Origin: Sphingobium aromaticiconvertens
Lineage (GTDB): Bacteria; Pseudomonadota; Alphaproteobacteria; Sphingomonadales; Sphingomonadaceae
Reading direction: 5' to 3'
Assembly (NCBI RefSeq): GCF_037154075.1
Contig: NZ_JBANRJ010000001.1
Span: 3,963,501 to 4,027,500 of the forward strand
Length of the DNA: 64,000 bases
In this document: one piece after another, positions 5,581-63,958 of the stretch
Layout: each line of letters opens with the position of its first letter
Numbering within the stretch: position 1 is the stretch's first letter
Notes under the pieces: model-generated
The model's input: only the letters and a program-made list of their open reading frames with translations
Told to the model about the DNA's origin: nothing
The model's database searches: none
Position numbers and translations under genes: made by a program

Positions 5581-5588
5581 TACTTAGG
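5581..5588 (-). promoter_or_regulatory. Putative FixJ-type site upstream of histidine kinase-BON operon
   Basis: TACTTAGG on the plus strand (CCTAAGTA toward the gene), 62 bases before the kinase start. It belongs to the recurring TACNTAG family described under findings. The assignment rests on recurrence and position only. Confidence 0.4.
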
Positions 5589-5666
5589 GGTCGATCCCCC
5601 GTGCTCGCGTCCTTCCATATTGATGTTTCACGCCGCGGGCTCTTGGCGACGGCTTCATCGTGGCCG

Positions 5667-6791
5667 TCAGCCGAGCGACACGCCGACCATTGCCCCGGCA
5701 CCGTAGGTGACTGCGGCAGCGGCAATCCCGATGACGAGTTGGCGCGCCGCCGAGAACAGCGCGGAACGGCCGGTGAAAAGGCTCGTGCCGGCGCCGATCA
5801 GCGCGAGGGCAAGGCCACTGGCGGCCAGGCTGGCGATCAGCGCCGGTCGCCCCGAGAGCAGCAGGAATGGCGCGACCGGGATGATCGCGCCGGTCGCAAA
5901 GAGCAGGAACGACCATGTCGCGGCCGTCCAGGCGGACCCGCCGAGCTGATCCGGATCGATCCCGAGCTCCTCGCGCGCCAGCGTGTCGAGCGCGGTTCCT
6001 TCATTGCTCAGCAGCCGCTCCGCCAGTGCGCGCGCCTGTGGTTCGGCGATGCCTTTGGCCTGATAGATCAGGACAAGCTCCTCCTTCTCTTCCCCGGGAA
6101 CCTCGCGCAACTCTTCGGCTTCGGTCGCGATCTGGCTCTGGTAGAGTTCGCGCGAGCTTGTGACCGACAGCCATTCGCCCATCGCCATCGAGCAAGCGCC
6201 CGCGACAAGACCGGCAAGCCCCGTGAGCAACAGCGTATTGTCCGCCGCGGCGGCGCCGGCCACACCCATCACCAGGCTGAGATTGGAGACGAGGCCGTCA
6301 TTGGCTCCGAGCACGGCGGCGCGCAATGTGTTGCCACCGCCGCGGTGGCGTCCCTCGAGGAGCGCGATCGTCGGTCCGGAAAGACCTCCTTTGCCGGCGG
6401 CGGCCCGCATCAGCGCGGCATGCGATCGCTCGTCGCCCGGAAGCCCGGCGGCCCTCGCCTCGGGCTGTGCGTCATAGGCCGTGCTGCCGCGCATCTCGCT
6501 GGCCGCGATCGCCGGCAGAACGAAAGCCGGTCCGAATCGCTTCGCCAGCCAGGAGAGGATGCGTGCGCTTGCGGAGGGAGCAGGCGAAAAATGGCCGCCG
6601 CCGGCTTCGATCCGCTTGCGCCAGAACTCGCCATGGGCCTGCTCGACCGCGGCGAGCCGGTGGAACACCTCGGCCAGCTTTGGATCGGTCTCGCTCTCGG
6701 CCAGCGCCGCATAGACCGCCGCGCCGTCGACCTCGCCCTGGAGATTGGAGCGATAGCGCGGCAGAGGGTCAGGGTCGGTCCCGGTCGTCAA
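5667..6791 (-). CDS. mbfA: Membrane-bound ferritin-like/VIT1 iron exporter (MbfA type)
   Basis: A 374-residue fusion. The N-terminal ~145 residues form a ferritin-like (erythrin) domain with diiron-type ligands Glu20, Glu50-x-x-His53 and a later ERSHAALM motif. The C-terminal part is a VIT1/CCC1 transporter domain beginning AVLGANDGLVSNLSLVMGV, with about five membrane helices. Such proteins export Fe2+ and protect against iron and peroxide stress in rhizobia and relatives. The only available start is a TTG at 6791 that overlaps the stop codon of the upstream alcohol dehydrogenase (TTGA), which implies translational coupling. The Shine-Dalgarno signal is weak. Function is inferred from domain architecture. 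Confidence 0.87.
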   Translation of the reverse strand: MTTGTDPDPLPRYRSNLQGEVDGAAVYAALAESETDPKLAEVFHRLAAVEQAHGEFWRKRIEAGGGHFSPAPSASARILSWLAKRFGPAFVLPAIAASEMRGSTAYDAQPEARAAGLPGDERSHAALMRAAAGKGGLSGPTIALLEGRHRGGGNTLRAAVLGANDGLVSNLSLVMGVAGAAAADNTLLLTGLAGLVAGACSMAMGEWLSVTSSRELYQSQIATEAEELREVPGEEKEELVLIYQAKGIAEPQARALAERLLSNEGTALDTLAREELGIDPDQLGGSAWTAATWSFLLFATGAIIPVAPFLLLSGRPALIASLAASGLALALIGAGTSLFTGRSALFSAARQLVIGIAAAAVTYGAGAMVGVSLG

Positions 6792-7825
6792 GCTTCTATG
6801 ATCACTTTCAGTGCCTGGGTCGTAGCGGCGCGGCCGAACGTATCATAGGCGTCGAGAATGTCCGCCAGCGCGAAACGGTGCGTGATCAGCAGCTTGGGAT
6901 CGATCTTCTTAGATTGAACCGTCTTGAGCAGCATCGGCGTCGTCGCGGTGTCGACCAGCCGCGTCGTGATCGAGATGTTGTGCGACCAGAGCCGCTCCAG
7001 ATGGAGGTCGACCTTGGAGCCGTGGACGCCGATATTGGCGATCACGCCGCCCGGGGCGACGATGTCCTGGCACAGCACGAAGGTGGCGGGAATGCCCACA
7101 GCCTCGATCGCGGCGTCGACGCCGCGTCCCTCGGTCAGCACCTTCACCGCGTCAGCCGCTTTCCCGTCGGCGCTGTTGACGACGTGCGTCGCGCCGAAAC
7201 GGCGGGCGACTTCCAGCCGGTTGTCGTCGAGATCGATCATAATGATCTGGGCAGGAGAATAGAATTGCGCGGTCAGCAACGTCGCGAGCCCGATCGGCCC
7301 CGCGCCGACGATGGCGACGCTGCTCCCGGGCGCGACCTTGCCGTTGAGCACGCCGCACTCGAAGCCGGTCGGCAAGATGTCGCTCAGCATCACCAGGGCC
7401 TCCTCGTCGGCGCCCTCGGGGATCGGGTAGAGGCTGGTGTCAGCATGGGGGATGCGGACATATTCGGCCTGGGTGCCGTCGATCTCATTGCCGAGGATCC
7501 AGCCTCCCGTCGTGCAATGCGAATACATGCCGCGACGGCAATAGTCGCACCGGCCGCAGGCAGTGACGCACGAGATGAGCACGCGGTCGCCCGGCTTGAA
7601 GACGGTGACGCCCGCGCCGATCGCCTCGACCACGCCCACGCCTTCATGACCGAGGATGCGGCCCGGGGCGCAGGTCGCGACGTCGCCCTTCAGGATATGC
7701 AAGTCCGTCCCGCAGATCGTCGTCCGCGTGATGCGAACGACCGCGTCGCCGGCGTCGCGGATTTCGGGCTTGGGCCGGTCCTCGAGCGCCTTGGCGCCTG
7801 GACCCTGATAAACGAGCGCTTTCAT
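6788..7825 (-). CDS. Zinc-dependent alcohol dehydrogenase (MDR family)
   Basis: A 345-residue medium-chain dehydrogenase. The catalytic zinc site is seen in TICGTDLHILKGD and GRILGHEGVG, the structural zinc site in CGRCDYCRRGMYSHC, and the NAD-binding Rossmann motif in VAIVGAGPIGLATLL with an acidic residue following (MIDLDDNRLE), which favours NAD(H). I chose the ATG at 7825, preceded by AAAGG; the frame extends 11 codons further upstream without support. The gene overlaps mbfA by 4 bases. A CCGTAGATTAACGG element lies about 106 bases upstream. It probably reoxidises NADH with aldehydes during oxygen limitation, but the substrate is not determined. Confidence 0.88.
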   Translation of the reverse strand: MKALVYQGPGAKALEDRPKPEIRDAGDAVVRITRTTICGTDLHILKGDVATCAPGRILGHEGVGVVEAIGAGVTVFKPGDRVLISCVTACGRCDYCRRGMYSHCTTGGWILGNEIDGTQAEYVRIPHADTSLYPIPEGADEEALVMLSDILPTGFECGVLNGKVAPGSSVAIVGAGPIGLATLLTAQFYSPAQIIMIDLDDNRLEVARRFGATHVVNSADGKAADAVKVLTEGRGVDAAIEAVGIPATFVLCQDIVAPGGVIANIGVHGSKVDLHLERLWSHNISITTRLVDTATTPMLLKTVQSKKIDPKLLITHRFALADILDAYDTFGRAATTQALKVIIEA

Positions 7826-7930
7826 GCACAAACCTTTCTGTAGCCGAATGTCGGACATGCGCCTTGGCGCGTCCCTTCAGGACCGGTGATGAAGACCAGC
7901 GATGTGAACCCGGACTCGCGCCGAACCTAT

Positions 7931-7944
7931 CCGTAGATTAACGG
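7931..7944. promoter_or_regulatory. CCGTAGATTAACGG inverted-repeat element
   Basis: A 14-base element with CCGT/ACGG arms, about 106 bases before the alcohol dehydrogenase start at 7825. It is almost identical to the element at 8938-8951 ahead of the hdeD-like gene (one central base differs). It may be a FixJ-family operator; this is inference. Confidence 0.45.
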
Positions 7945-8033
7945 AAGGATCGAATCCTGTCGGCGTCTTGTGACCTCTGACGGGTTTCAGCTGTCCCGTG
8001 GGGCTGGCTAGAGATAAGTCTCTGGCGCTGGAA

Positions 8034-8681: not shown

Positions 8682-9026
8682 ACGCGGTGACGGGCTCTGG
8701 TAAACGACGATATTGTTGCTGCGCTGGTTGATAAGGCGCGCGTCGCCGTTCATGATACCGGGACGGCCGAGGACGAGATCCCGCTGCCTGCCAGCTACGC
8801 TGTGGCTGGCCGCAAATGGCTGTAGGCCATGGGTCGGATATGCTTACCGGGTGTGACTTCTGGCGGCTCCTGCGACAGCACGAGAACGTTGTTTGAATGT
8901 TGCGCTGAACTGAACCGTTGGGGGGCGCGGCGCCAATCCGTAGATAAACGGAGTGTGCTGGAGATCGCCGGAGCCTAGCAAGCAGTCGTTGGGCGTTGGA
9001 CCGTAGAGGCATAGGAGGCGAACATC
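8682..9026. other. Intergenic region with promoter of hdeD-like gene
   Basis: About 345 bases. The right end contains the CCGTAGATAAACGG element and the promoter for the downstream gene. The left part may hold further debris of the BON pseudogene region; a short frame ending EDEIPLPASYAVAGRKWL can be read but I do not recognise it. Confidence 0.45.
8938..8951. promoter_or_regulatory. CCGTAGATAAACGG inverted-repeat element
   Basis: Near-duplicate of the element at 7931-7944, positioned 76-89 bases upstream of the hdeD-like start at 9027. It is a candidate binding site for the FixJ-type regulator or another LuxR-type activator. Confidence 0.45.
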
Positions 9027-9623
9027 ATGATCTACACGCAAGGATCGCGCTTCGGCGACGGCCCGGCTTCGCTCGAGCAGCGCGGCGCATGGCGCTGGTT
9101 CGCGGCGCTCGGCATCGCGCTTGTTCTGTTGGGGGCCATTGCGTCCGCAAACCTGTTCATCACGACCGTTGCAGCGACTTTTTACGTCGGGGCCGTCATG
9201 CTCGTCGCTGGCGCGTTCCAGATCATCCATGCCTTCGGCGTCAGAAAATGGACGCGGTTCACATTCTGGCTTCTCAGCGGATTACTTTATCTTGCGGCCG
9301 CTGCCGCGATGTTCCTCGATCCCCTGTTCGCGGCCACCCTGCTGACCCTGTTCCTCGGCGTCTCGCTCGGACTCTCCGGCGTTCTGCGTCTCTTCATCGC
9401 GCTTACAACGCGCACGCCGCCCCGTTGGGGATGGATGGCCGTCTCGGCCGTTGCGAGCATTGCCGTCGCGCTGGTGATTGCACTCGGCTGGCCGGTCAAT
9501 TCGATCTGGGTTCTCGGGCTGGTGCTGTCGATAGACCTGCTGTTCCAGGGGGTCGCCCTCCTCCTGATCGGTCTGTCCCTGCGTAACGCCACGTTCTGCA
9601 TGCGCGCTTCGGGCTGGCGCTAG
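9027..9623 (+). CDS. HdeD family (DUF308) membrane protein
   Basis: A 198-residue integral membrane protein with six predicted hydrophobic helices in three pairs, for example FAALGIALVLLGAIASANLF, FYVGAVMLVAGAFQIIHAF and FTFWLLSGLLYLAAAAAMFL. This internal repeat and the length match HdeD/DUF308 proteins, which are linked to acid or general stress tolerance but have no established mechanism. The ATG at 9027 follows GGAGGCGAACATC. The SulP gene begins 6 bases after its stop, so the two probably form one transcript. The CCGTAGATAAACGG element upstream suggests stress- or oxygen-linked control. Confidence 0.85.
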   Translation: MIYTQGSRFGDGPASLEQRGAWRWFAALGIALVLLGAIASANLFITTVAATFYVGAVMLVAGAFQIIHAFGVRKWTRFTFWLLSGLLYLAAAAAMFLDPLFAATLLTLFLGVSLGLSGVLRLFIALTTRTPPRWGWMAVSAVASIAVALVIALGWPVNSIWVLGLVLSIDLLFQGVALLLIGLSLRNATFCMRASGWR

Positions 9624-9629
9624 AGCGCA

Positions 9630-11405
9630 ATGGGCAATCGGCTCGATCCGAGGGCACGACCGCTCATGATGCGTGAGCCAGGCTTCGCAGAGCTGTTCAC
9701 GCCCAAGCTCTTCACGGTGCTGCGCGAAGGCTATGGTTTTTCCGCGCTCAAGGCCGACGCCGTGGCCGCGCTGACGGTCGCGGTCGTCGCCCTGCCGCTT
9801 TCGATGGCGATCGCGATCGCCTCGGGCGTGACGCCGGATCGGGGTCTTCATACCGCGATCGTCGGTGGCTTCCTCGTCTCGGCGCTGGGCGGCAGCCGGT
9901 TCCAGATCGGCGGGCCGGCCGGCGCGTTCATCGTGCTGGTGGCTGCGACGGTCACGCAGCACGGGTTTGACGGGCTGATCCTTGCCACGCTGCTGTCCGG
10001 CCTGATCCTGCTCGCCATGGGCCTTCTGCGGCTGGGCACTTTCATCAAATATATCCCGTACCCGGTCACCGTCGGCTTCACCGCAGGCATCGCCGTCATC
10101 ATCTTCGCCAGCCAGTTCAAGGAACTGCTGGGGCTGACCCTAATCGGCAAGGAGCCCGGAGCGATCATCCCCAAGGTCGCGGCGCTGGCGGGCGCATGGA
10201 CGACGATCAGCCTGCCCGCGGTCGCAATCTCGCTGCTGTCGATCATGATCATCGTCGCGGTCCGCCGGCTTCGTCCGCACTGGCCGGCGTTTCTGATCGC
10301 CGTCTGCGTGGGATCGATCACCACCTGGATGATCGGGCTCCCCATCGAGACGATCGGCACGCGCTTTGGCGGCATTCCCCAGCTGCTCCCGTCACCCCAG
10401 CTGCCGGCCCTCTCGCTCACCAAAATCGGCGCCGTATTGCCCGCCGCCCTCTCCTTCGCACTGCTCGGCGGCATCGAAAGCCTCCTGTCAGCCGTGGTTG
10501 CCGACAGCATGACCGGGCGGCGGCACCGCTCCAATTCGGAGCTCGTCGGCCAGGGCATCGCCAATATCGGCTCCGCGCTGTTCGGCGGCTTCTGCGTGAC
10601 CGGCACGATCGCGCGCACCGCGACCAACGTGCGCGCCGGCGCCCATGGCCCGGTAGCCGGTATGCTGCACGCCGCTTTCCTGCTGCTCTTCATCCTGCTC
10701 GCGGCGCCACTGCTGAGCTATGTCCCGCTCGCCACGCTTGCCGCGGTCCTCGTCGTAATCGCCTGGAACATGATCGAGAAACAGGAGATCGCCACGCTGT
10801 TTCGCGCTTCGCGCGGCGACGCTGTGGTGCTGCTCGCGACACTGCTGCTCGTCATCTTCCGCGATCTCACGGAAGGCATTCTGGTCGGCTTCGGCATCGG
10901 GACGCTGCTCTTCCTCCATCGCATGGCGCAGGCCGTGGAGATCGAGCGTCCCCAGCCCCTGATAGAGACGGACTTGGCCGACCGCGGTGAGGAGGGCCGG
11001 ACGCCCTATGATGTCGCCTTGGCGACAAATCCCGATGTCATCGTCTATCGGATCTCTGGCGCCTTCTTCTTTGGCGCTGCGGCGAGTGTCGCGGCGGCGC
11101 TTGATCGGATCGGCGAGCATCCGAAGGCCTATGTGATCGATTTTTCCGCTGTGCCGCTGCTCGACTCGACCGCCGCGGCGACGATCGAGGGTTTCGTGCG
11201 CAAGGCGCACCGCAAGGGCGCAATCGTCTATATCGCCGGCGCCCGGCCCGCCGTTCGCCGGACGCTTCTGACCCACGGCGCCCGCCCTCCCCACGCCCGG
11301 TACAGGAAGACACTCTCAGGAGCAGTGGAAGCGGCGCATGCCGATATCGAGGGTACTCGACTCCCGGAAGCCGGCGGGATGGGGTCCGAGCTGGCGGAGC
11401 CCTGA
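9630..11405 (+). CDS. SulP family anion transporter with STAS domain
   Basis: A 591-residue transporter. Residues ~30-420 contain the SLC26/SulP membrane core with about 12 helices, including the FQIGGPAGAFIVLVAATV stretch, the GGIESLLSAVVADSMTGRRH segment and the IANIGSALFGGFCVTGTIARTA region typical of the family. Residues ~470-560 form a cytoplasmic STAS domain with VIDFSAVPLLDSTAAATIEG. Members carry sulfate, bicarbonate or dicarboxylates by proton or sodium symport; the substrate here cannot be decided. It follows the hdeD-like gene by 6 bases. Its own Shine-Dalgarno is weak, and an ATG at 9666 is an alternative start. The end abuts a decayed USP gene on the opposite strand. Confidence 0.9.
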   Translation: MGNRLDPRARPLMMREPGFAELFTPKLFTVLREGYGFSALKADAVAALTVAVVALPLSMAIAIASGVTPDRGLHTAIVGGFLVSALGGSRFQIGGPAGAFIVLVAATVTQHGFDGLILATLLSGLILLAMGLLRLGTFIKYIPYPVTVGFTAGIAVIIFASQFKELLGLTLIGKEPGAIIPKVAALAGAWTTISLPAVAISLLSIMIIVAVRRLRPHWPAFLIAVCVGSITTWMIGLPIETIGTRFGGIPQLLPSPQLPALSLTKIGAVLPAALSFALLGGIESLLSAVVADSMTGRRHRSNSELVGQGIANIGSALFGGFCVTGTIARTATNVRAGAHGPVAGMLHAAFLLLFILLAAPLLSYVPLATLAAVLVVIAWNMIEKQEIATLFRASRGDAVVLLATLLLVIFRDLTEGILVGFGIGTLLFLHRMAQAVEIERPQPLIETDLADRGEEGRTPYDVALATNPDVIVYRISGAFFFGAAASVAAALDRIGEHPKAYVIDFSAVPLLDSTAAATIEGFVRKAHRKGAIVYIAGARPAVRRTLLTHGARPPHARYRKTLSGAVEAAHADIEGTRLPEAGGMGSELAEP

Positions 11406-12184: not shown

Positions 12185-12255
12185 ACCGGCCTCTCACGCA
12201 GGGTCGATATAGGCAGGGTATGCCGCGTCGAATGCGCGACCGAATTGGGTAAGTC

Positions 12256-12264
12256 TACTTAGGG
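12256..12264 (+). promoter_or_regulatory. TACTTAGGG element upstream of second alcohol dehydrogenase
   Basis: TACTTAGGG ends 56 bases before the ATG at 12320, the same sequence as the element ahead of the histidine kinase (5581-5589). The position suits an activator adjacent to the -35 region. Functional assignment is inferred. Confidence 0.42.
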
Positions 12265-12319
12265 CGGTACCCGGCAAAGTGTGCGAGACTGACCGTACTG
12301 CCAATGATAGGATCATGAC

Positions 12320-13321
12320 ATGGGCCAGATGCGCGCCATGCAACTCGACGGACCCGGCAAGCCGTTGCGCATGGTCGCGCGGCCGTTGCCCGTTGCCGGC
12401 CCGGCGGAGCTCCTGATCAAGGTGGCGGCCTGTGGTGTCTGCCGCACCGACCTCCATGTGCTCGACGGTGAAATTCCCGCCCATTACCCAATCATCCCGG
12501 GTCATGAGATTGTTGGCCGGGTGCTTGCCGTGGGCGAAGAAGCCGCAGGCTTCGCGATCGGGCAACGCGTTGGCGTTCCGTGGCTCGGCCACACCTGCGG
12601 CGTCTGCAGCTTTTGCAGGAGCGGTCACGAAAATCTCTGCGATCAGCCGGAGTTTACGGGCTGTACCCGCGACGGCGGCTATGCCAGCCATGTCGTGGCG
12701 GACGCACGCTATTGTTTTGCGCTACCCGATCGCTTCACCGATGCGGAAGCTGCCCCCCTGTTGTGTGCTGGCCTCATCGGCTGGCGCGGGCTGCGTCTCG
12801 CCGGCGACGGGCGGCGGATCGGGCTGTACGGTTTCGGCGCGGCCGCGCACATCCTCACCCAGGTCGCGACATGCCAGGGACGTGAGGTCTATGCCTTCAC
12901 CAAGCCAGGCGACGAAGACGGACAGGCCTTCGCGCGGTCGCTCGGCTGCGTCTGGGCCGGGTCATCCGAGGCGGCGCCTCCAGTTCAGCTCGATGCCGCG
13001 CTGATCTTTGCGCCCGTAGGCGCGCTGGTGCCAGCCGCGCTGAAGGTCGTTCGCAAGGGTGGACGTGTCGTCTGCGCGGGAATTCACATGAGCGACATCC
13101 CTGCCTTCCCCTATGCCGATCTCTGGGGTGAGCGTGCGATCCTTTCGGTCGCCAATCTGACGCGTCAGGACGGGATCTCCTTCTTTGAGATGATCGAAAA
13201 GACGGGGATCAGGACCGTGACCGAACGCTTTACGCTGGAGCATGCGAACGAGGCATTGCAACGGTTGCGCGAGGGTCAGTTGACTGGCGCCGCCGTGATC
13301 TGTCCCCATCCGGAGACATAG
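12320..13321 (+). CDS. Zinc-binding alcohol dehydrogenase (AdhA/propanol-preferring type)
   Basis: A 333-residue medium-chain dehydrogenase. Catalytic zinc ligands lie in AACGVCRTDLHVLDGE and IPGHEIVGRV; the structural zinc lobe is CGVCSFCRSGHENLC. The cofactor domain has the motif IGLYGFGAAAHILTQVA. The segments HYPIIPGHE, GWRGLRLAG and AVGALVPAALKVVRKGG are typical of propanol-preferring dehydrogenases often found in stress or anaerobic gene sets. It is monocistronic, with a TACTTAGGG element 56 bases upstream. It may work with the dehydrogenase at 6788-7825 as a fermentative electron outlet. Substrate range is not visible from sequence. Confidence 0.88.
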   Translation: MGQMRAMQLDGPGKPLRMVARPLPVAGPAELLIKVAACGVCRTDLHVLDGEIPAHYPIIPGHEIVGRVLAVGEEAAGFAIGQRVGVPWLGHTCGVCSFCRSGHENLCDQPEFTGCTRDGGYASHVVADARYCFALPDRFTDAEAAPLLCAGLIGWRGLRLAGDGRRIGLYGFGAAAHILTQVATCQGREVYAFTKPGDEDGQAFARSLGCVWAGSSEAAPPVQLDAALIFAPVGALVPAALKVVRKGGRVVCAGIHMSDIPAFPYADLWGERAILSVANLTRQDGISFFEMIEKTGIRTVTERFTLEHANEALQRLREGQLTGAAVICPHPET

Positions 13322-13780
13322 GCGGGCCATCAGAGACACCATGCTCCCCGTGAATGATGGCGGACGGGACGGGCGCGGGCCAGACAAGCATCTCGTTCGG
13401 CGGACTCCTGAACAACGACGTCTCCCGCGCCGTCGGTGAACCGTCGTGTCCCGATTAAGCCCGATAACTGAGCGTGAACCAGCGTCACTCAGCCCTTTCT
13501 GAGCTGAACCTTGTTGCGCGCCATCGTTCAAGCCTCCGGAATGGGTCATTTGTTCCCATTTCGTATCAACAAATCGGCTGACGATGGTGCCTAATCAGGA
13601 AAGTGAATGTTACAGCCAGCCCGGTCTTTCGGGTGCCTCAGGCACTCCGTTATTATACGGATTGGAACCGCTGCATTTCCGATCGACTCTGAACCGACCA
13701 AAAAGCCGCGGGGACGATTGCCCACCGGCGCCAGCGGCATCGGACGAAACCAAGCCTCGATCTATTGCGGAGTGCAGCAC
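13322..13780. other. Intergenic region upstream of nitroreductase
   Basis: About 459 bases. The nitroreductase frame remains open through 13607-13780, but the residues it would encode have no family similarity, so I treat this as leader. I see no recognisable RNA gene or repeat. Confidence 0.45.
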
Positions 13781-14338: not shown

Positions 14339-14340
14339 AC

Positions 14341-14410: not shown

Positions 14411-14704
14411 TCAACCGGTCGTCGCTCGAACGACCTGTCCATCCGCGTGCGTAATCGCCAGTCCTGTTGGCTCTCCAGTTCCAGGAAATGGTAAGGCGCA
14501 CGTCTGCGGGCGATTTCGATCTCCTTTGTCGAAAAACAGAGATCGCGTGCATTGGCGATGAACCGCTGCCGGTTCGCGTCGGCGTTGGATAGTCGCGGTA
14601 CCCGCTGTCCCGTCGCGGTGCAGCGGGTGCGAGCCGATCATCTCGTAATAGCGGATCATCCGCTGCGAGACCCCCCTCACCTTCCAGGCCTCGCCTATGT
14701 TCAT
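14411..14704 (-). pseudogene. Broken MerR-family (CueR-like) regulator
   Basis: The first 30 residues match the MerR winged helix: [20 protein letters not shown] followed by EMIGSHPL. Shortly afterwards the frame is lost. The continuation RLSNADANRQRFIANARDLC and FSTKEIEIARRRAP is found in another frame around 14480-14600, and then the dimerisation helix decays. The metal-binding C-terminal loop is not recoverable. The ATG overlaps the stop codon of the copper ATPase gene (ATGA), the arrangement expected for an ATPase-cueR operon. The module has therefore lost its local copper sensor, unless the short product retains DNA binding. Confidence 0.72.
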
Positions 14705-17037: not shown

Positions 17038-17165
17038 CAATCTGCTCCTGTGGCAACGCCGCTGCATATGAGGTTTGATACTATGTCAGGGTCAAGAGCT
17101 GCTGGCGGTCGGCATCCGGTCGACGACAAGGCCATAACAAACGGAAGAGCCCACCGGTCTCCGTT

Positions 17166-17176
17166 ACATTACCTAT
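17166..17176. promoter_or_regulatory. ACATTACCTAT element in divergent copper-module promoter region
   Basis: Located between copA and the divergent Met/His-rich gene. It is a looser relative of the TACNTAG elements (CTCCGTTACATTACCTATAG context), 57 bases from the start at 17233 and about 129 from copA. A copper-regulator site could equally be present. Low confidence. Confidence 0.25.
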
Positions 17177-17232
17177 AGAAGTGGGCGGGGCGGCGGGAGA
17201 CCATGCGGACAACTCCTCGAAGGATTCGTTCC

Positions 17233-27806: not shown

Positions 27807-28260
27807 ATTCCGGCCTCCTGTTGTCTTACGCGGCATTTTTCCGTGCGCCCTAACACAGGGCCACCACGCCCAGCGCCAGGCGTTCGAGGACAAGCCCGAA
27901 GCTCGTTGCGACGCCGCAATTTCTGATGGCGGCCACGGTGACCGATCCGGAAGAGACTCGAAATAGGTGTATCTACGGAGTCATGGCGCGTGCCGTCCGC
28001 CTCGAACAGCACGACTCGCCAGTCCCGATGAGGCGTGAAAGCAATCTGTCCAACAGCCACTCCTGATCGAAGGACCCAAGGACGGCCAACGGCTCAATCC
28101 GCGCAAGCGGCTTTCCTGGATCGCGGGTCAACAATGCTGCCGAAAATCCGATTCTCAGTTCGTATGCCGCACACGTCCGCTCAGCATCCCGTCAATAGAA
28201 TTGGATCATGTGCGGAGCGCCTGCTGTGCTTGGGTGCCACCGGATATTCTCACGGCGCGG
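27807..28260. other. Intergenic region upstream of USP-ndvB operon
   Basis: About 454 bases between two minus-strand USP genes. It contains the promoter of the USP-ndvB operon and the ATCTACGG element at 27971. No convincing coding frame is visible; a possible minus-strand frame near 27960-28060 has no start signal or known motif. Confidence 0.45.
27971..27978 (-). promoter_or_regulatory. CCGTAGAT element upstream of USP-ndvB operon
   Basis: ATCTACGG on the plus strand, read CTCCGTAGATACACC toward the operon, sharing CCGTAGAT with the elements at 7931 and 8938. It lies 165 bases before the USP start, farther than the others. Confidence 0.35.
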
Positions 28261-29140: not shown

Positions 29141-29149
29141 AACTAGGGG
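29141..29149. promoter_or_regulatory. AACTAGGGG element upstream of USP gene
   Basis: Read CCCCTAGTT toward the USP start at 29076, 65 bases away. It is a weaker member of the TACNTAG family and may also serve the divergent L,D-transpeptidase gene. Confidence 0.3.
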
Positions 29150-29260
29150 ATAATACCAATCCCGGGACGGTGCCGATCACATCATTCTCGCGTGCGACGG
29201 GTCCAGATACGGATCGTTGTCCGCAGGATCGACATGACAGATTATCGAGGATCAAATGCG

Positions 29261-34070: not shown

Positions 34071-34433
34071 GATGACCTCCTTCGCCGAGTCTTGTTGAGG
34101 ATAAAGGCGGTCCATCGGCGCCTATATTGGGGAGTTTACCTAGCCGACCATCTTCGGGCGCCGTCCTGCGGCCGCACTCGGCTGAAATTTGTCGCTTGGC
34201 CAAGGAGTCGAGCCCCGGCCTGCAGGGATGATGGCATACCCTGGTCCCTCCGGGACAATACGGATTCTGTGGCAGCGCCAGGCAACAGACAAGGGACGTT
34301 GCAGGGATTCCCCGATGCGCGGTCAATCCATTGGCGACCCTGCGATGAACTTGCCGATGGTCCCCGGCTTATGGCCGTCGATGAGCTGCCGACCCACCTG
34401 GGACGGTTATTTTACGAGCCAAGGAGAGCTGAG
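34071..34433. other. Divergent intergenic region between hsp20 operon and BON gene
   Basis: About 363 bases containing promoters for the minus-strand hsp20 operon and the plus-strand BON gene, and the TTACCTAG element at 34136. No other coding frame is convincing. Confidence 0.45.
34136..34143 (-). promoter_or_regulatory. CTAGGTAA element upstream of hsp20 operon
   Basis: TTACCTAG on the plus strand, 66 bases before the small-protein start at 34070. It is a member of the recurring TACNTAG family of candidate FixJ-type sites. Confidence 0.4.
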
Positions 34434-35137: not shown

Positions 35138-35898
35138 AGCTTCGATAATCGCTCAAGATGAACGTGAAGTCCGCGCCTGTCCGTTCCTGGCGATCCTTCC
35201 TCTTTGCATTTTATGCAGGAAGCCCGGCCGGCGAGCACATCGACCCGGTTACATTATCTGTGGGTTGGCATTCGATTTCTATGTCGCCTACCGGCGACCG
35301 ACGCATGTGGGCTAGACTTTGAGGTGCCCGCCGTCGAGGACGCTCGCGTGGCTATCGATACCAACGGCTCGCCTCAGACGGTATGAACAAAACCGGCGTG
35401 GAACTGGCCAAGATCCACAGGCCAGAAGTAGCCACTCCGAGCGCGCGCCACCAGGACTGCGGACAATCAAGCGAGAAGCTCCTTGGGCATCACGCGCCGA
35501 TTCGACAGCGATTAGAGCCGCTGACTGGCTATTCGGTCTGGGAGTTCTATTACCGGGAATGCGCCATGATCGTGGATGCCCGCGCATCGATTTGGGGATG
35601 GACTTGCCGTGTGCTGAAGACCGCCGACAAATGAGGTAGGGGGTCAGCCCCAGTCGCCATCGACACCATGATCTGGCTCGCAACCACGCCGCACAGCATG
35701 ATTATACCAATCCGCAAACGGTTGGCGCCGTCGGGCAGGTTTCGGCGTGTTTGGATGGACCGGTTCATCAGGGACTCCTGGGTTTAATCTTTGTCCGGGG
35801 TCTGGCCGGAGAACGTCGGAGTCGTACGCAACGAACGACCTGTTCGGCATCCGGAAGTCTACGCAGTGGCGCACCGCGAACTCTTCCTCCGTATCCTC

Positions 35899-35906
35899 AC
35901 GTAATG
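35899..35906 (+). promoter_or_regulatory. ACGTAATG element upstream of USP operon
   Basis: ACGTAATG, identical to the 8-mer ahead of the PHA synthase-like gene (44782-44789), lies 73 bases before the USP start at 35979. It is a candidate FixJ-type half site. Confidence 0.32.
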
Positions 35907-35978
35907 ATTGTCGCGAACGTGACCGCCATTGTTCGGCTACGACTCCGCCTCGATGGCGGGCATGCGCTGGAGATTCAT

Positions 35979-40694: not shown

Positions 40695-42611
40695 GTGCAA
40701 CCAGAGAGGATGGATCAAAGCCAGACGGGATTCCATATGGAAAGTGACGCGCAGGATAGCTCAACACGGCAGGCCCGCTGGGGCTATGCGATTGGTATCG
40801 TGGCCGTTCTCCTCGCCGTACCCGCCGATCTTGCTCTCCGCGCGTGGGGCGTCAACCACAGCCCCTATCTGCTGCTCATCCTTTCGATCATCGTTGCAGC
40901 CGCGCTGGGTGGAACGGGCGCCGCAACGGGCGCGGCTATTCTCGCTATTCTGGTCGGGGCCTTGTTTGCCCTATTGCGCCCATTGCCTGGTCTTGAACCC
41001 TTCGATCTGCTGCTTTCGCTGCTGGTGGCCGCAGGCATCGCCCTGCTCGACGCTCGCAACGCGTCCTTGCGACGGCGGCGTGCAGCCTGGGACAGGAGAC
41101 GCCAGAACCAGCTCTCGGAGATCGCCGACGAACTTAACCTGCTGATCGACGGAGCACAGGGTTATGCAATCTACATGCTCGATCCCGAAGGCCGCGTCAC
41201 GATCTGGAACGACGGCGCCGAGCGGCTGAAGGGCTGGAGAGAGCAAGAGGTCGTCGGCCAATATTGCTCGATCTTCTACCCGGCGGACGCCGTCCAGGCC
41301 GGCAAGCCCGAAGCCGACCTCAAACGCGCGCGCGACGAGGGCAAATTCGAGGAGGAAGACTGGCGGCTCAGGAAGGATGGTTCCGAGTTCCTCGCGCATG
41401 TTTCGATCACTGCGCTGCGTGATGAAAGCGGAGCCTTGCGCGGCTTCGGCAAGGTGGTCCGCGATGCAACGGGGGAGCGCGCCGCCGAGAGTGCGCACAA
41501 AGCCAGCGCCAGCCATCTCCGCTCGATCCTCTCGACGGTCCCCGATGCGATGATCGTGATCGACGAACACGGCATCATCCTCTCGTTCAGCGCCGCGGCC
41601 GAACGGCTGTTCGGCTTTTCAGAGGCTGAGATTCGCGGATCGAACCTGAGCCTGCTCATGCCGTCGCCCGATCGTGAACGCCATGACAGCTATCTCGAAC
41701 GCTATCTTGCAACCGGCGAGCGAAGGATCATCGGGATCGGGCGCGTCGTCATCGGCGCGCGGCGTGATGGTTCGACCTTCCCGATGGAACTATCTGTGGG
41801 CGAAGCCATTGGCGAGACCCAGCGCGTCTTCACCGGCTTCATCCGGGACCTGACCGAACGCCAGGAGACCCAGGAGCGCCTCGATGAACTGCAGTCCAAG
41901 CTGATTCATGTCGCCCGGGTGAGCGCGATGGGCACGATGGCCTCGACGCTCGCCCACGAGCTCAACCAGCCGATCACCGCCGTCGCCAACTATGTGGAGG
42001 CGGTGCGCGACCTGCTCGCCGAAGCCAATCCCGAGGATCTGCCGATGATCCGCGAAGCCCTGGATGATTCGGTTCGAGAGGCTCTGCGCGCCGGACAGAT
42101 CGTACGGCGGCTGCGCGACTTCGTTGCGCGCGGGGAGGTTGAGAAGACCGTCGAGAATCTTCCCACCCTCATTGGCGAGGCGGCGGCGCTCGGGCTGATG
42201 GGCGCTAGGGAGAAGGGTATCGACGCCCAGTTCGATCTCGCTCCCGACGCTTCGAAAGTGCTTCTCGACAAGGTGCAGATCCAGCAGGTGCTAATCAATC
42301 TCCTTCGCAATGCGGTGGAGGCCATGGCGGAATCGTCCGAACGGCATCTGTGGATTGCATCCCGCCGTGACAAAGCTGGCTTCATTCGGCTAACTATTGC
42401 TGATTCTGGCCCGGGCGTTTCGCCTGAAGTCGCGGAACAGCTCTTCACCGCCTTCGTCAGCACGAAGAGCGAGGGCATGGGTCTGGGGCTCTCGATCTGC
42501 CGCACCATCGTCGAGGCGAACGGCGGTCGGATATGGCTGGAGCCACGTCCCGGCGGCGGGGCTCAGTTTCATTTCACGCTCGTCGAAGCCGAGCCGGAGA
42601 CTATCGAATGA
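40695..42611 (+). CDS. fixL: Oxygen-sensing histidine kinase, FixL type (membrane-anchored, two PAS domains)
   Basis: A 638-residue kinase. Four hydrophobic helices at the N terminus (about residues 30-120) anchor it. PAS 1 follows at ~145-265. PAS 2 (~270-390) is FixL-like: [18 protein letters not shown] contains the probable proximal heme ligand His330, followed by [20 protein letters not shown] with the conserved arginines. The kinase core has the H-box [20 protein letters not shown] (His421), an N-box [13 protein letters not shown] and [24 protein letters not shown] motifs. It should phosphorylate the FixJ encoded next when oxygen is low. The GTG at 40695 is one of three plausible starts (40710, 40737). 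Confidence 0.9.
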
Positions 42612-43231
42612 CCGAAAGACGTATGATCCATATCGTCGATGATGAGGAGGCGATCCGGCGATCAGCCGGATTCATGTTGAAAACATCGGGTTTCACGGTG
42701 GCGAGCTACGCGTCCGGAGTCGCCTTCCTGCGCGAGGTGCGGCACGCCGAGCCCGGCTGCATCCTTCTCGATGTCCGCATGCCCGAGATGGACGGACTGG
42801 AGGTGCAGCAGGCGCTTCTCGAGCGCGGCGTCGCCATGCCCGTCATCATCTTGACCGGGCACGGCGATATCTCGATTGCGGTGCGGGCCATGAAGGCAGG
42901 CGCAGTCGAGTTCATCGAGAAGCCTTTCGAAAAGGCCGTGCTACTGGATGCTATCGCCGCCGCCTTCGAACGGCTCGACGACAGCGACAAACGGGCGACA
43001 AGGGCGGCCGACGCGGCCGTGATGATCTCCGCGCTGACCGGACGCGAACAGGACGTGCTCAAGGGACTGGCCGAAGGTTTACCCAACAAGACAATCGCCT
43101 ATGATCTCGGCATATCGCCCCGGACCGTCGAGGTGCATCGCGCCAATCTGATGACGAAACTGGGGGTCCGTAGCCTGTCCGATGCGCTGCGTATCGCATT
43201 CGCCGCCAATCTCGGCGACGACCGCTCATAG
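42608..43231 (+). CDS. fixJ: Response regulator, FixJ type
   Basis: A 207-residue transcription factor. The receiver domain (residues 1-120) has [20 protein letters not shown], phospho-acceptor Asp55 in [13 protein letters not shown], the ILTGHGDI switch threonine and EFIEKPF lysine. The C-terminal LuxR-type helix-turn-helix is [20 protein letters not shown] followed by [20 protein letters not shown]. The ATG overlaps the fixL stop (ATGA), so the two are translationally coupled. No fixK gene is visible in the window, so this regulator may act directly on the surrounding stress and PHB genes. Recurrent TACGTAG-like elements are candidate targets. Confidence 0.9.
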
Positions 43232-43237
43232 GACCTC

Positions 43238-43244
43238 TACGTAG
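43238..43244. promoter_or_regulatory. TACGTAG element upstream of single-domain receiver gene
   Basis: CTCTACGTAGCG, 73 bases before the start at 43317 and directly after fixJ. It is one of the two best matches to the TACGTAG core; the other is at 44279. Confidence 0.45.
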
Positions 43245-43316
43245 CGACTTGCCGCGATTTTCCTGCGATTCCTTGCATCCGGTCGACGTTAGGAACCGGA
43301 TCAATGCGAGACGATC

Positions 43317-43802: not shown

Positions 43803-44222
43803 CTAACCGAGACCCAGAGGCAGGACTCCATCGACAAGGCCAAGCAGCACATGGTGCGCGAACGGCTTGTGGAGAATATGCGCGTAGCCCGCACCGCGTG
43901 CGCAGAGTTCGGTCTCCGCGGAATGATCGGCTGTGGTTAGAATGGCCGGGCGCTGCCAGCCCGCCGCCCGGAGCTGACGCAGAAGGTCGATTCCATCCAC
44001 ATGAACGGGCCGATGCTCGGCGATCAGGCAAGCTGCCTCCTCTCTCATCGGATCTGCCAGGAGGCGGGTCTCCTCTGCATAGGCTTTCACGCTATAGCCG
44101 CGAGCCATAAACAACAGGTGCAACGCGCGCCTCAATCCGGTGTCGCTCTCGACAAGGAGGATCACAGCGTGAGGAATCTGCGGGTCGGTGGGCCTATGTG
44201 TCACTCGTGCCAAACAAACCAA
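43803..44222 (-). CDS. Atypical single-domain receiver protein with Asp-to-Glu at the phospho-site
   Basis: A 139-residue receiver-fold protein closely related to the neighbour at 43317. The core reads VILLVESDTGLRRALHLLFM, then CLIAEHRPVHVDGIDLL. The position of the phospho-acceptor Asp is Glu69, and one residue of the acidic pocket is serine (Ser26). The switch threonine (ILTTADHS) and lysine (ILHKPF) remain. Such a protein may be locked in an active-like state or be phosphorylation-independent. Its promoter has a perfect CTACGTAG element 57 bases upstream of the ATG at 44222. The start is not certain; a GTG near the first strand is possible. Confidence 0.8.
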   Translation of the reverse strand: MVCLARVTHRPTDPQIPHAVILLVESDTGLRRALHLLFMARGYSVKAYAEETRLLADPMREEAACLIAEHRPVHVDGIDLLRQLRAAGWQRPAILTTADHSAETELCARGAGYAHILHKPFAHHVLLGLVDGVLPLGLG

Positions 44223-44278
44223 GGACTGCCGGAATCGTCCGGTCGATTCGGTCTAACGGCAACGTCGCCGCTCTGAAC

Positions 44279-44285
44279 TACGTAG
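44279..44285. promoter_or_regulatory. CTACGTAG palindrome upstream of atypical receiver gene
   Basis: CTACGTAGATTTCCC (44278-44292), with a perfect 8-base palindrome, 57 bases before the start at 44222. The TAGATTTCCC continuation resembles FixJ sites as I remember them from rhizobial fixK promoters. Confidence 0.5.
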
Positions 44286-44780
44286 ATTTCCCAAGTGACG
44301 GATAGCGCCACTGCTGATTTCCCCTCCGAGGGGAGCGATCTCAATCCATCCGCGACCGATCCTGCGAACCCCCTGGCGACAGCGGCAAGAAGCGCGCTCT
44401 GGATGACCGTACGGAGAGCATTTGTCCGGTCGCGATCTGGTGCCGCACTATAGGGTCACAATGTAAGGACGGCTGGGCAAGACCGTCTGCTTCTGCTCGA
44501 TCATTGGGTTTACCAAGATCAATTCCGCCGTGTCGCACCTATGTCATCCATGAAGGCAAGCTGCTTTTCAGGGGACGCGCGCGGCGATGGATCGCTGACG
44601 AAAATGTTCGGGAGCAACCGACGGACTTGCGCTGTATCTAACCTTTGCAGTACCGTTTATTGCCGTTGCGAAGGTGCGATTCTTTTCCAAGGCACGGATC
44701 AAGCCTTGGCCCAAAATACCTGAGAATACAGGCGAAAGTGATAGCAATGGAATGCCGTGGGACATGCGGCATGGGGCATT

Positions 44781-44786
44781 TACGTA
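44781..44786 (+). promoter_or_regulatory. TACGTA element upstream of PHA synthase-like operon
   Basis: TTTACGTAATGC, 57 bases before the ATG at 44843. It shares ACGTAATG with the element at 35899 and has the position expected for an activator site. Confidence 0.42.
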
Positions 44787-44842
44787 ATGCGCTTGCGCGT
44801 GTTCAGCCGCAGTAGAGACAGGATTTTTTCAGGAGCTCCAAG

Positions 44843-54184: not shown

Positions 54185-54199
54185 ACCCGGTGTCGGCGC

Positions 54200-55264: not shown

Positions 55265-55888
55265 CTACTTGCGCTGTGCGGACGGCGCCAACGCCCGCAA
55301 CCCACTGATCAGCGTGTCGAGCCGCTGTTCGGCTTCGCCTTGATCAGCCTCGGGATAGGCCGTCGCGACGCGAGCGCCCCAACAGCCTAAATCGACCGTC
55401 GTGAGGCTGAATTCAAAGGGAACGCCTTCGCGGCTGCCGCGGAACCGTCCGCGCCAGACGGCATCCTTTGGCATGTCGGGAAGAACGACCGGCCTCTCGG
55501 ACAGCGGCGTGCTTTCATCGAAATAGCTGCGCGCAAGCCACTTCATGATCGTATAATGCTCCTTCGCCGACATTTGCTCGATATGAACCAGCGAGATGCG
55601 GGCAACGATCGTCGAACCGTGCACTGGCGAACGATATTCGACGGAAACATACTGGCCGCTGGGATCATATCCCTGCTCGGCTACGCGGGTGAATCCGGCG
55701 AGCATATGGGGAAAGCGCGCACCGCTTCCCACATGCACCAAGGTCCCGTCGGAATCGAGGCGGAAGCCCGCCGGGGCGGTCGCTTCGGCGGCAGCGGGCG
55801 CCGACTGGGCGGCGGTGTGAATAGAAAGCCCAAGAAGAACACTCAGAACGAGCGGCGCAAGACGCCTGAGACGCGTCTTCCTTTTCAT
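55265..55888 (-). CDS. Secreted protein of unknown function
   Basis: A 207-residue protein starting MKRKTRLRRLAPLVLSVLLG with a twin-arginine-less Sec signal peptide (cleavage near AQSAPA). The mature part contains LVHVGSGARFPHMLAGFTRV, YVSVEYRSPVHGSTIVARIS and VDLGCWGARVATAY. I do not recognise a named family. The start overlaps the stop of a 37-residue membrane peptide gene by 4 bases (ATGA), so the pair is an operon. A periplasmic location is expected. The 55 open codons upstream of 55888 belong to another frame of the small gene and are ignored. Confidence 0.72.
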   Translation of the reverse strand: MKRKTRLRRLAPLVLSVLLGLSIHTAAQSAPAAAEATAPAGFRLDSDGTLVHVGSGARFPHMLAGFTRVAEQGYDPSGQYVSVEYRSPVHGSTIVARISLVHIEQMSAKEHYTIMKWLARSYFDESTPLSERPVVLPDMPKDAVWRGRFRGSREGVPFEFSLTTVDLGCWGARVATAYPEADQGEAEQRLDTLISGLRALAPSAQRK

Positions 55889-55998
55889 TCGGGAAGCTTC
55901 GCCATGATGATGGAGGCGATCGCCATCACCAGACCGGCCGTCAATCCATACAGGAAAATGACGTCGATCGACTGACGAATTCTGTCCAGGGCGTGCAT
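55885..55998 (-). CDS. 37-residue single-pass membrane peptide
   Basis: MHALDRIRQSIDVIFLYGLT and AGLVMAIASIIMAKLPE form one amphipathic start and one membrane helix. GGGGAGA precedes the ATG at 55998 at ideal spacing. The stop overlaps the start of the secreted protein gene by 4 bases. Small single-helix proteins like this often regulate or stabilise a membrane partner. No homologue is recognised. A loose CCTCAGTAA element lies about 66 bases upstream. The gene is too short for standard calling and could be missed. Confidence 0.62.
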   Translation of the reverse strand: MHALDRIRQSIDVIFLYGLTAGLVMAIASIIMAKLPE

Positions 55999-56063
55999 GG
56001 AGATTCTCCCCTTTGTGGTGAGAAAAGTTTCGCGCAGCCGCGCTGTTGGGCATATTGGTAGTG

Positions 56064-56072
56064 TTACTGAGG
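56064..56072 (-). promoter_or_regulatory. CCTCAGTAA element upstream of small membrane peptide gene
   Basis: Loose relative of CCTAAGTA, 66 bases before the ATG at 55998. Included because the spacing fits the other elements; individually weak. Confidence 0.22.
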
Positions 56073-56093
56073 CGGCCATCACCATGTGCCTGC

Positions 56094-57218: not shown

Positions 57219-57219
57219 C

Positions 57220-62539: not shown

Positions 62540-62568
62540 TGCCCCCTGGTTCGGTCTTCAAATAGGCA

Positions 62569-62596
62569 GCTCCCGCCCGGGGGACCGGGCGGGAGC
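62569..62596 (-). terminator. Strong hairpin after phasin gene
   Basis: A perfect 12-bp stem (GCTCCCGCCCGG / CCGGGCGGGAGC) with a GGGA loop, 25 bases beyond the phasin stop. It separates phasin transcription from the efflux operon. The following T content is low. Confidence 0.65.
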
Positions 62597-62621
62597 CGTT
62601 GTTCGCCGTGAGTTGCGACCC

Positions 62622-63041: not shown

Positions 63042-63145
63042 GGGTCAGGTCCTTTCGAGAATCGAGGCGGGAGGAAAAACAGTTTCCGTTGCGATGCTGC
63101 GCTGCGATATGAGGGATTGTCCTTACGCACGATGGCAGACGAGGC

Positions 63146-63874
63146 TCAGCCATTGGCGATATATTGCCCTCCGTTGATGGTAAGCACCGAGCCCGTGCAG
63201 AAAGCCGCCTTTGGCGAGGCGAGATAGGAGACCGCTTGCGCGACCTCGTCGGGGTCGCCGAGACGGCCGACAGGGATGCCGGCGATGATCCCGGCGCGCA
63301 CCTCCTCCTTGACGGCGGCGACCATGTCGGTGTCGACATAACCGGGACAGACCGCGTTGACGGTTATGCCGCGCGCGGCATTTTCCTGAGCCAGCGCCTT
63401 GGTGAAGCCGATCACGCCCGCCTTCGCCGCGGAATAGTTGACCTGCCCTATCTGGCCCTTCTGCCCATTGATCGACGAGATGTTGATGATCCGGCCGAAG
63501 CGCCGCTCGCGCATGCCCTCGATGATTGCGCGGGTCATGGTGAACATCGAGTCGAGGTTGTTCGCCAGCACGGACCGCCAATTGTCCCAGCTCATCTTGT
63601 GGAAGACCCCGTCGCGGGTGATGCCCGCATTGTTGATGAGGATGGACACCGGCCCAAGCCGTTCTTCGACCTGGGCCACGCCGTCCCGGCAGGCCGCCTC
63701 GTCCGCAACGTCCCATTTGAACACCGATATGCCGGTGTCCTGCTTGAACCGGGCGGCGGCGGCGTCATTGCCATGATAGACGGCCGCCACCTCATGGCCT
63801 TCGGCCTTCAGCGATCGGGCGATGGCCGCGCCGATCCCGCGCGTGCCACCGGTTACGAGTGCGATATCCGTCAT
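63146..63874 (-). CDS. phaB: Acetoacetyl-CoA reductase (PhaB/PhbB)
   Basis: A 242-residue short-chain dehydrogenase: IALVTGGTRGIGAAIARSLK is the NADPH loop, ILINNAGITRDGVFHKMSWD the NNAG motif, IINISSINGQKGQIGQVNYS and YSAAKAGVIGFTKALAQENA hold the catalytic Ser-Tyr-Lys. The GQIGQVNYSAAKAG signature and WDNW segment are typical of PhaB. It supplies (R)-3-hydroxybutyryl-CoA to the PHA synthase. I chose the ATG at 63874; the open frame extends 40 codons upstream without similarity. A TATACTTAGCG element is 78 bases upstream, suggesting common control with the PHA synthase-like operon. Confidence 0.92.
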   Translation of the reverse strand: MTDIALVTGGTRGIGAAIARSLKAEGHEVAAVYHGNDAAAARFKQDTGISVFKWDVADEAACRDGVAQVEERLGPVSILINNAGITRDGVFHKMSWDNWRSVLANNLDSMFTMTRAIIEGMRERRFGRIINISSINGQKGQIGQVNYSAAKAGVIGFTKALAQENAARGITVNAVCPGYVDTDMVAAVKEEVRAGIIAGIPVGRLGDPDEVAQAVSYLASPKAAFCTGSVLTINGGQYIANG

Positions 63875-63951
63875 GATCGTCCGGGTCCGTTCCTGTTTCA
63901 GATGCGCCGCGAGGTTTCCCCCACAGCTCCTCCCCGGACAATGCGTATGTA

Positions 63952-63958
63952 TACTTAG
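63952..63958 (-). promoter_or_regulatory. CTAAGTA element upstream of phaB
   Basis: TACTTAG on the plus strand, 78 bases before the phaB start, within GTATACTTAGCG. It matches the cores at 5581 and 12256. Confidence 0.4.

Follow-up and report, generated by a model that had tools for sequence, protein, structure and literature searches.

The sensor kinase FixL and response regulator FixJ encoded in a 64-kb stretch of the Sphingobium aromaticiconvertens genome (hereafter the window; part of the main contig, C1, of a 5.45-Mb genome) have their closest described counterparts in the FixLJ-FixK cascade of rhizobia and Caulobacter, in which the same kinase and regulator families appear to use the same DNA site. 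In the available portions of a comparative survey, FixLJ is known from Rhizobiales and Caulobacterales among 50 genomes, every genome with fixLJ also carries fixK, and fixK is the only known conserved FixJ target (PMC4999443). Unlike that cascade, the window carries predicted FixJ boxes directly on about 15 promoters, centred near −43.5, and no intact FixK was found. A second parallel is the FixK2 gene set of Bradyrhizobium diazoefficiens, which is like the microoxia-type genes described here. The accessible part of one report lists universal stress proteins (USPs), a host-attachment protein, an MlaE/MCE transporter, a GNAT protein and an alcohol dehydrogenase as induced under microoxia, and its USPs and host-attachment protein share the mark of fixO/fixP, which we read as that of a direct FixK2 target (PMC6515984). 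In the island that contains the window, by contrast, FixJ boxes would stand in place of direct FixK2 control.

Mycobacterial DosR offers a more distant comparison: there a haem-sensor kinase, of a different type from FixL, works with a LuxR-type regulator in the direct control of USPs, alpha-crystallin and nitroreductases. DosR matches the DNA-binding domain of the window FixJ weakly (1zlj, 6.6e-4), and a DosR-type regulator was rejected, FixJ being by far the better match. A sphingomonad anaerobic response is likewise described for the FnrN/FixK regulon of Sphingopyxis granuli TFA, where, in the parts of the report available, Fnr boxes are used and many anaerobically regulated genes are unexplained (PMC7713065).

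An initial annotation of the window had noted a recurrent TACGTAG or TACTTAG element before most stress, polyhydroxybutyrate (PHB) and USP genes around fixLJ, and had proposed that FixJ acts directly on a local low-oxygen regulon. Our comparisons, all made on sequence, support this proposal through motif identity, the FixK search and local clustering: the element is very probably the FixJ binding site, and FixJ would activate a low-oxygen island directly, bypassing FixK. The DNA itself shows the motif and where it lies, its identity with known FixJ sites, a constant distance to a −10-like element and clustering near fixJ. Regulator and site are known already; the direct multi-promoter island and the promoter layout are new as far as we searched, and a literature search with most subscription journals outside its coverage returned no report of FixJ targets in sphingomonads.

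A palindromic element concentrated around fixLJ

The sensor and the regulator are encoded by two adjacent genes:

40695..42611, + strand: FixL, membrane histidine kinase with haem-type PAS (Pfam PAS, HisKA, HATPase)
42623..43231, + strand: FixJ, receiver with LuxR-type DNA-binding domain (Pfam Response_reg, GerE)

The best solved-structure matches of the kinase are FixL or FixL fusions, and its PAS domain conserves an RHDSY stretch that we take to be the haem PAS signature; with its HisKA and HATPase domains, it has the make-up expected of FixL. The regulator combines a receiver with a GerE/LuxR domain and appears closest to known FixJ, its best structure match being solved FixJ (5xso, 2.6e-47). 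Its DNA-binding domain was aligned to that of S. meliloti FixJ (1x3u), with which it shares a stretch of 23 protein letters, and its DNA-reading stretch is kept with few changes in FixJ of Caulobacter, Aurantimonas, Rhodopila and Sphingopyxis. FixJ of Sphingobium faniae (L009) is identical, the aligned coding DNA being 99.2% identical. For the genus, the accessible part of another study records FixLJ in just 1 of 19 other Sphingobium genomes and mentions it, without naming targets, for Sphingobium hydrophobicum (PMC6783567). Sphingobium sp. SYK-6 (L032, L036) has fixJ relatives on its chromosome (72%) and on plasmid pSLPG (67%).

The element was characterised in the best 80 loci listed by a FixJ search, mostly from sphingomonads and taken with up to 10 kb on each side; one of these, L051, was omitted from motif training and counts (hence 79 loci) and kept for the FixK search. 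Throughout, 'intergenic' means outside the genes called by our own codon model, not by annotation, and gene starts are predictions. In the 241 kb of intergenic DNA from the 79 loci, an unseeded count against a third-order background returned TACGTA in all nine of the most over-represented 8-mers, with CTACGTAA observed 32 times against 1.7 expected, ATTACGTA 28 against 1.6 and TACGTAGA 26 against 1.4. TACGTA occurs at 0.96 per kb of intergenic and 0.03 per kb of coding DNA in these loci, a 33-fold difference between figures that count every palindrome twice. Extended, this core gives a 16-bp imperfect palindrome of the approximate form TWSGGRANWTTACGTA. Two matrices were built by hard selection of top sites. 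The 16-column matrix came from intergenic DNA round FixJ genes of other species, with the window's near relatives L009 and L010 excluded; the 20-column matrix was trained on sphingomonad loci only, with 13 further non-sphingomonad loci excluded. Expectation-maximisation without a fixed site number drifted to AT-rich DNA and was dropped.

All 14 positions at which the element had been reported, by strict or loose likeness, carry the stated letters, lie in non-coding DNA and are among 17 intergenic matrix matches in the window. All 14 also match the matrix trained without the window's closest relatives, and three boxes, at 13646, 34249 and 35850, had been missed. The recurrent element is real, and stronger than was claimed, as a longer motif and in its placement; the literal 7-mers alone are not enriched. 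The literal 8-mer CTACGTAG, with at most one mismatch, has 5 matches in the window against 5.6 by chance, so that the case rests on the longer motif, its position and its conservation.

Placement is strongly biased. Only 10.2 of the window's 64 kb are intergenic, yet at ≥11 bits all 14 matches to the 16-column matrix fall there (binomial p = 7e-12), as do 17 of the 18 matches to the 20-column matrix, the single coding match being at 22532 (11.3 bits). With the 16-column matrix at the same threshold, 20 control stretches of the same genome (400 kb) contain 3 intergenic and 12 coding matches; at ≥12 bits they contain 1 intergenic match (in 59.5 kb) and 6 coding matches, against 13 in the intergenic DNA of the window. 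Extending the window by 40 kb on either side gives 26 matches in 29.6 kb of intergenic DNA and none in coding DNA, an intergenic rate 52-fold that of the control, and the window with the seven 20-kb stretches L109-L115, without L116 (204 kb), has 39 intergenic and 4 coding matches to the 20-column matrix at ≥11 bits. Across the genome, the pattern GKRNNNHTACBKAK has 81 hits, 25 of them (some inside called genes) within C1:3882625-4054085 (171 kb, 3.1% of the genome), an island that as drawn reaches out from the window by about 81 kb at its start and about 27 kb at its end; since its ends were set once the hits had been seen, the clustering p-value of 3e-18 is too small. The same pattern reversed, as a backward control, is richer (157 genome hits), so for this pattern only the clustering counts, and the pattern TNNGRNNNHTACKNAK was of little use (46 genome hits, 5 in the island). 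The initial annotation had called for a genome scan; the boxes prove to be local, with window and island enriched and control stretches nearly empty, and the idea of a local regulon holds, except that the island, at about 170 kb, exceeds the window.

The concentration recurs in relatives. Twenty genomes of the family have 61 intergenic sites of ≥12 bits in 20 kb round fixJ against 4 in distant 20-kb stretches of the same contig. Some of these genomes are of the same or near species as training loci (for example L117/L010, L124/L032), and the test is to that extent dependent on training, an overlap that the controls share. Every fixJ stretch has at least one site and 16 of the 20 controls have none, with coding matches at 8 and 5, respectively. 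The fixLJ locus of S. granuli NBRC 100800 (L014) has six intergenic boxes of ≥16 bits. At six sites aligned with Sphingobium sp. TCM1, identity is 96% within the sites, as against 86% for the intergenic DNA beside them; the values for L117, probably the TCM1 strain itself, are identical, and the two count as a single comparison.

Identity of the regulator that reads the element

Known FixJ sites connect the motif with this regulator. The S. meliloti fixK site TAAGTAATTTCCCTTA (Kurashima-Ito 2005, as quoted in the available text of PMC4999443) scores 20.5 bits on the reverse strand with the 20-column, sphingomonad-only matrix, whereas the best of 200,000 random 16-mers taken from control DNA stops at 15.1; by this measure the window box appears to be the same site as the experimentally defined one. 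None of the 13 non-sphingomonad loci (Caulobacter, Rhodopila, Aurantimonas and others) was used in training. A fixK-type Crp/Fnr gene is present in 10 of them (Crp family confirmed by Pfam for 4), preceded in every case by a site of ≥16.8 bits at a distance of 57-193 bp; the site in L085 falls inside a called gene. No fixK was found within the available stretch of the other three (L079, L083, L087). The matrix motif also agrees with the consensus sites GTAMGTAG and GTAGTTTCCC from systematic evolution of ligands by exponential enrichment (PMC4999443) and with the R. palustris fixK promoter, which contains GTACGTAG and binds FixJ (PMC13327599), as given in the accessible parts of both sources. 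Together, the score of the S. meliloti site, the sites upstream of fixK and the shared FixJ DNA-binding stretch identify the motif, on comparative grounds, as the FixJ box. Boxes can lie within a preceding reading frame: in Caulobacter sp. 602-1 a 19.8-bit box (L013:11097) overlaps the end of a receiver gene and precedes an alcohol-dehydrogenase-like gene.

The boxes might instead be read by another LuxR-type response regulator of the island, such as a FixJ paralogue 32 kb downstream (C1:4038311-4038817, L111 ~10811-11317; 39% identity over query residues 21-194), the more so as the LuxR-type DNA-binding family reads similar sites. We consider this unlikely: the motif was recovered from 79 loci centred on FixJ orthologues, all 10 fixK-bearing loci outside the sphingomonads have it before fixK, and the window FixJ is closest to solved FixJ, with the DNA-reading stretch kept. 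The paralogue has a 13.4-bit box upstream of its own gene (L111:10663).

That the window lacks FixK, as the initial annotation had it, was upheld: a scan of window genes showed no protein of Crp/FixK type, and an intact FixK orthologue is likewise missing from the genome's Crp-family hits, 7 of which lie above the Pfam cut-off. The best fixK match of the genome (39% over 119 residues, at C1:4050398; L112:2892-3620, C1 ~4050390-4051120, − strand) reads in two frames, and its first part has an apparent N-terminal cysteine cluster, presumably of FNR type. Both features suggest an FnrN-like gene, broken or misassembled (or affected by a sequencing error), and not a FixK. By eye, the likely start of this gene is preceded, at about 200 bp, by a FixJ box of 17.6 bits. 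An intact fixK under FixJ, the hallmark of the classical cascade, was thus not identified among the Crp-family genes of this genome. Among 87 sphingomonad loci, 10 have a Crp/Fnr relative of FixK (29-37% identity), and in 5 of these a site lies no more than 350 bp upstream; some species thus have a mixed network.

Control of the island by FNR/FixK-type proteins, with the palindrome incidental, would accord with the low-oxygen induction of a similar Bradyrhizobium set, part of it marked as direct FixK2 targets in the available text of PMC6515984, and with the presence of Crp-family genes in this genome, one of them behind a FixJ-boxed receiver gene. It is nevertheless very unlikely, because the window has no TTGA-N6-TCAA box and the 224 kb that comprise window, island and surroundings have 2, compared with 12 in the 400-kb control; this box was rejected as the common element. 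The EcfG general stress regulon was rejected too, its promoter pattern GGAAC-N16/17-CGTT being absent from the window and found once in L113 (coding) and once in L109 (intergenic).

Promoter layout and predicted target genes

The position of the box relative to transcription was assessed on 255 pairs of a site (≥14 bits) and a gene starting no more than 200 bp away, all turned in the direction of transcription and superimposed at the centre of the palindrome. At one fixed distance the base is A in 161 of 255 promoters (63%), against 9-30% at the other offsets printed, and TANNNT occurs there in 24 of 255 against a mean of 1.06 elsewhere. The distance from centre to A is 32.5 bp in both matrix orientations (143 and 112 promoters). 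Taking this A as −11 of a −10 element puts the box centre at −43.5, where class II activators bind. In 99 of 255 promoters an A also stands equally far out on the opposite side of the site, above chance, which is what sites shared by divergent genes should show. The constant position of the element upstream of a −10-like sequence might also suggest a promoter part of an alternative, extracytoplasmic function (ECF)-type sigma factor in place of an activator site. This is extremely unlikely, since the element is palindromic, its equal spacing to −10 in both orientations means that it is not a directional −35 element (which was rejected on that ground), and no EcfG boxes occur in the window.

Within the window, this A is present on the side of the assigned gene at 16 of the 17 intergenic sites, whereas the mean across all the offsets tried is 3.6 of 17; targets were assigned from gene layout with the promoter-direction results in view, and between the divergent genes at 34127-34268 other assignments are possible. 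The predicted transcription starts favour longer frames at 17067 (Cu-ATPase) and 27893 (USP1); they fall near 44822 for phaC, 43279 for the receiver, 34091 for hsp20, 29108 and 27928 for the USPs and 63906 for phaB. The predicted FixJ boxes are as follows:

5571..5590, + strand: 18.4 bits; histidine kinase 4764-5519 (−) and BON gene; A at −11 in gene direction
7926..7945, − strand: 15.2 bits; alcohol dehydrogenase 6788-7858 (−) and VIT1 gene; A at −11
8933..8952, − strand: 12.5 bits; HdeD-like 9027-9623 (+) and SulP; A at −11
12246..12265, + strand: 16.3 bits; alcohol dehydrogenase 12320-13321 (+); A at −11
13646..13665, + strand: 13.7 bits; nitroreductase, true start probably after 13697; A at −11
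17160..17179, + strand: 18.4 bits; Cu-type P-ATPase 14701-17067 (−); A at −11 in both directions
27964..27983, + strand: 18.9 bits; USP 26793-27893 (−), then 2818-aa GH94 protein; A at −11
29144..29163, + strand: 15.2 bits; USP 28261-29076 (−), perhaps also a divergent L,D-transpeptidase; A at −11 in both directions
34127..34146, + strand: 17.4 bits; hsp20 33262-33774 (−) and AAA_33 gene; −10 TATCCT, long predicted leader of ~317 bases
34249..34268, + strand: 16.4 bits; BON gene 34434-35087 (+); A at −11
35850..35869, + strand: 13.4 bits; upstream of USP 35904-36782 (+); no A at −11, the sole exception
35888..35907, + strand: 13.6 bits; second weak box of USP 35904-36782; A at −11, predicted transcription start 35939 inside the called open reading frame (ORF)
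43228..43247, + strand: 17.6 bits; stand-alone receiver 43317-43736 (+)
44275..44294, − strand: 22.5 bits, the window's best; second receiver 43803-44222 (−); −10 TAGACC
44771..44790, + strand: 17.0 bits; PhaC / MaoC-Pta / AckA / FabI operon from 44843 (+)
56055..56074, + strand: 12.4 bits; ORF 55265-56053 (−), called start 55888; A at −11
63938..63957, − strand: 13.9 bits; short-chain dehydrogenase/reductase (SDR) of acetoacetyl-CoA-reductase type 63146-63874 (−); A at −11

The GH94 protein, a cyclic-glucan-synthase-like protein of 2818 aa (18334-26790, −), is encoded 2 bp after the boxed USP gene 26793-27893 (−), which raises the possibility that the low-oxygen response extends to a glucan of the cell envelope. 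In the second receiver (43803-44222, −) a Glu apparently replaces the phospho-accepting Asp (LIAEHRPVHVDG, by eye). The second gene of the hsp20 operon encodes the AAA_33 protein, with a weak zeta-toxin match, and an IS110-type transposase gene (30621-31637, −) within the island adjoins this operon.

Targets were compared across 99 loci, some from one and the same species. Only genes that have ≥60 bp of upstream DNA to themselves were counted, and a gene was scored as boxed if a site of ≥11 bits lay within 300 bp upstream. Homologues are boxed in 33 of 47 cases for the receiver after fixJ, 8 of 9 for PhaC, 10 of 15 for Hsp20, 18 of 32 for USP2, 11 of 20 for USP3 and 5 of 5 for the protein at 62622. 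Further counts were obtained for FixL (24/78), the Cu-ATPase (6/15), BON_a (4/8) and alcohol dehydrogenase 1 (ADH1; 3/6), and genes without a homologue in the window are boxed in 118 of 689. Receiver, USPs, Hsp20 and PHB synthase look like the conserved targets and the others like local ones. The target list first proposed is upheld to this extent: its receiver, USPs, Hsp20 and PhaC are boxed elsewhere, and HdeD, VIT1 and SulP are not conserved as targets.

Further boxes lie in the wider island, about 216 bp before the called start of CydAB (cytochrome bd, L115) and, in L114, at a divergent pair encoding a D-2-hydroxyacid dehydrogenase and a phosphoenolpyruvate-utilising dikinase-type protein as well as before a receiver gene that is followed by a Crp-family gene. 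Those in L111 precede an Rrf2 regulator, with a globin gene on the opposite side, and an SDR gene with further genes behind it, a thiolase gene among them; those in L112 precede a USP and a flavodoxin-fold reductase. By their predicted functions, the genes of island and window together cover microoxic respiration, fermentation, the storage of carbon and the protection of proteins.

Proposed mechanism and its meaning for sphingomonads

At low oxygen, the haem-PAS FixL would phosphorylate FixJ, and the FixJ dimer would bind the 16-bp palindrome at about −43.5, just upstream of the expected −35 place, recruiting RNA polymerase to a promoter that otherwise has a weak −10 only (class II activation). 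This would switch on a low-oxygen survival island of about 170 kb comprising USPs, Hsp20, BON proteins and PHB synthesis, together with alcohol and D-2-hydroxyacid dehydrogenases, Pta-AckA, the Cu-type ATPase and probably cytochrome bd, with the FixK step bypassed. The two stand-alone receivers beside fixLJ would themselves be targets and may feed back on FixL. We infer oxygen sensing, phosphorylation, binding, activation in place of repression, and feedback from the FixLJ family.

Several observations weigh against this account. FixL scores 548 bits, short of the cut-off of 850 for the NCBIfam rhizobial FixL equivalog. According to the accessible part of PMC13327599, unphosphorylated R. palustris FixJ also binds DNA and represses nifHDK, which leaves activation uncertain. 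Judged by eye, FixJ-positive genomes are not set apart from FixJ-negative ones by their number of GRNNWHTACGTAK matches across 199 genomes, and G081, without a FixJ match, has 12 matches. A comparison of MaoC-Pta loci was a weak test: at ≥14 bits the 20-column matrix finds 0 sites in a FixJ-negative set (5 genomes without a FixJ match at 1e-40, 7 loci, 15.1 kb intergenic) and 9 in a FixJ-positive set (11 chosen loci, 32.5 kb, stretches ≥44 kb from fixJ; p = 0.03), the 16-column matrix finds 1 and 7, respectively, and even in FixJ-positive genomes only 5 of the 11 loci, distant as they are from fixJ, have a site. With G026 and G164 left out for a weak or partial MaoC-Pta match, 5 of the 7 FixJ-negative genomes with such a match were used, and the comparison weakly supports a dependence of the sites on FixJ. 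Among the targets, homologues of ADH2 (2/9) and PhaB (2/7) are seldom boxed and those of HdeD (0/3), VIT1 (0/3) and SulP (0/2) never. The 255 promoters include related species and hence are not independent, and the −43.5 layout is found in only 3 of the 10 non-sphingomonad fixK promoters, 2 of these 3 being from Caulobacter (of three). For the 7 fixK promoters from outside Caulobacter, inspection by eye puts the probable −10 about 13 bp further downstream, which would fit the placement of the S. meliloti FixJ site at −64 reported in the available text of PMC4999443. The sphingomonad box promoters, for their part, look like a distinct, compact layout.

For the sphingomonads as a group we favour, as probable, a largely FixK-free FixLJ network in which 30-40 predicted sites in one island of about 170 kb are directly FixJ-controlled from a compact −43.5 class II promoter, about one helical turn off the rhizobial fixK promoter; a FixK2-type gene set would there have been rewired to FixJ, the upstream regulator, giving a DosR-like one-step response. 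FixJ has so far been described with very few targets, fixK above all, in the accessible part of PMC4999443, and it becomes a candidate regulator for the Sphingopyxis anaerobic genes left unexplained by Fnr in the available portions of PMC7713065. A direct regulon with a binding model and predicted transcription starts would make the low-oxygen response of a large environmental group testable, and may exemplify a regulatory cascade from which the middle step has been lost.

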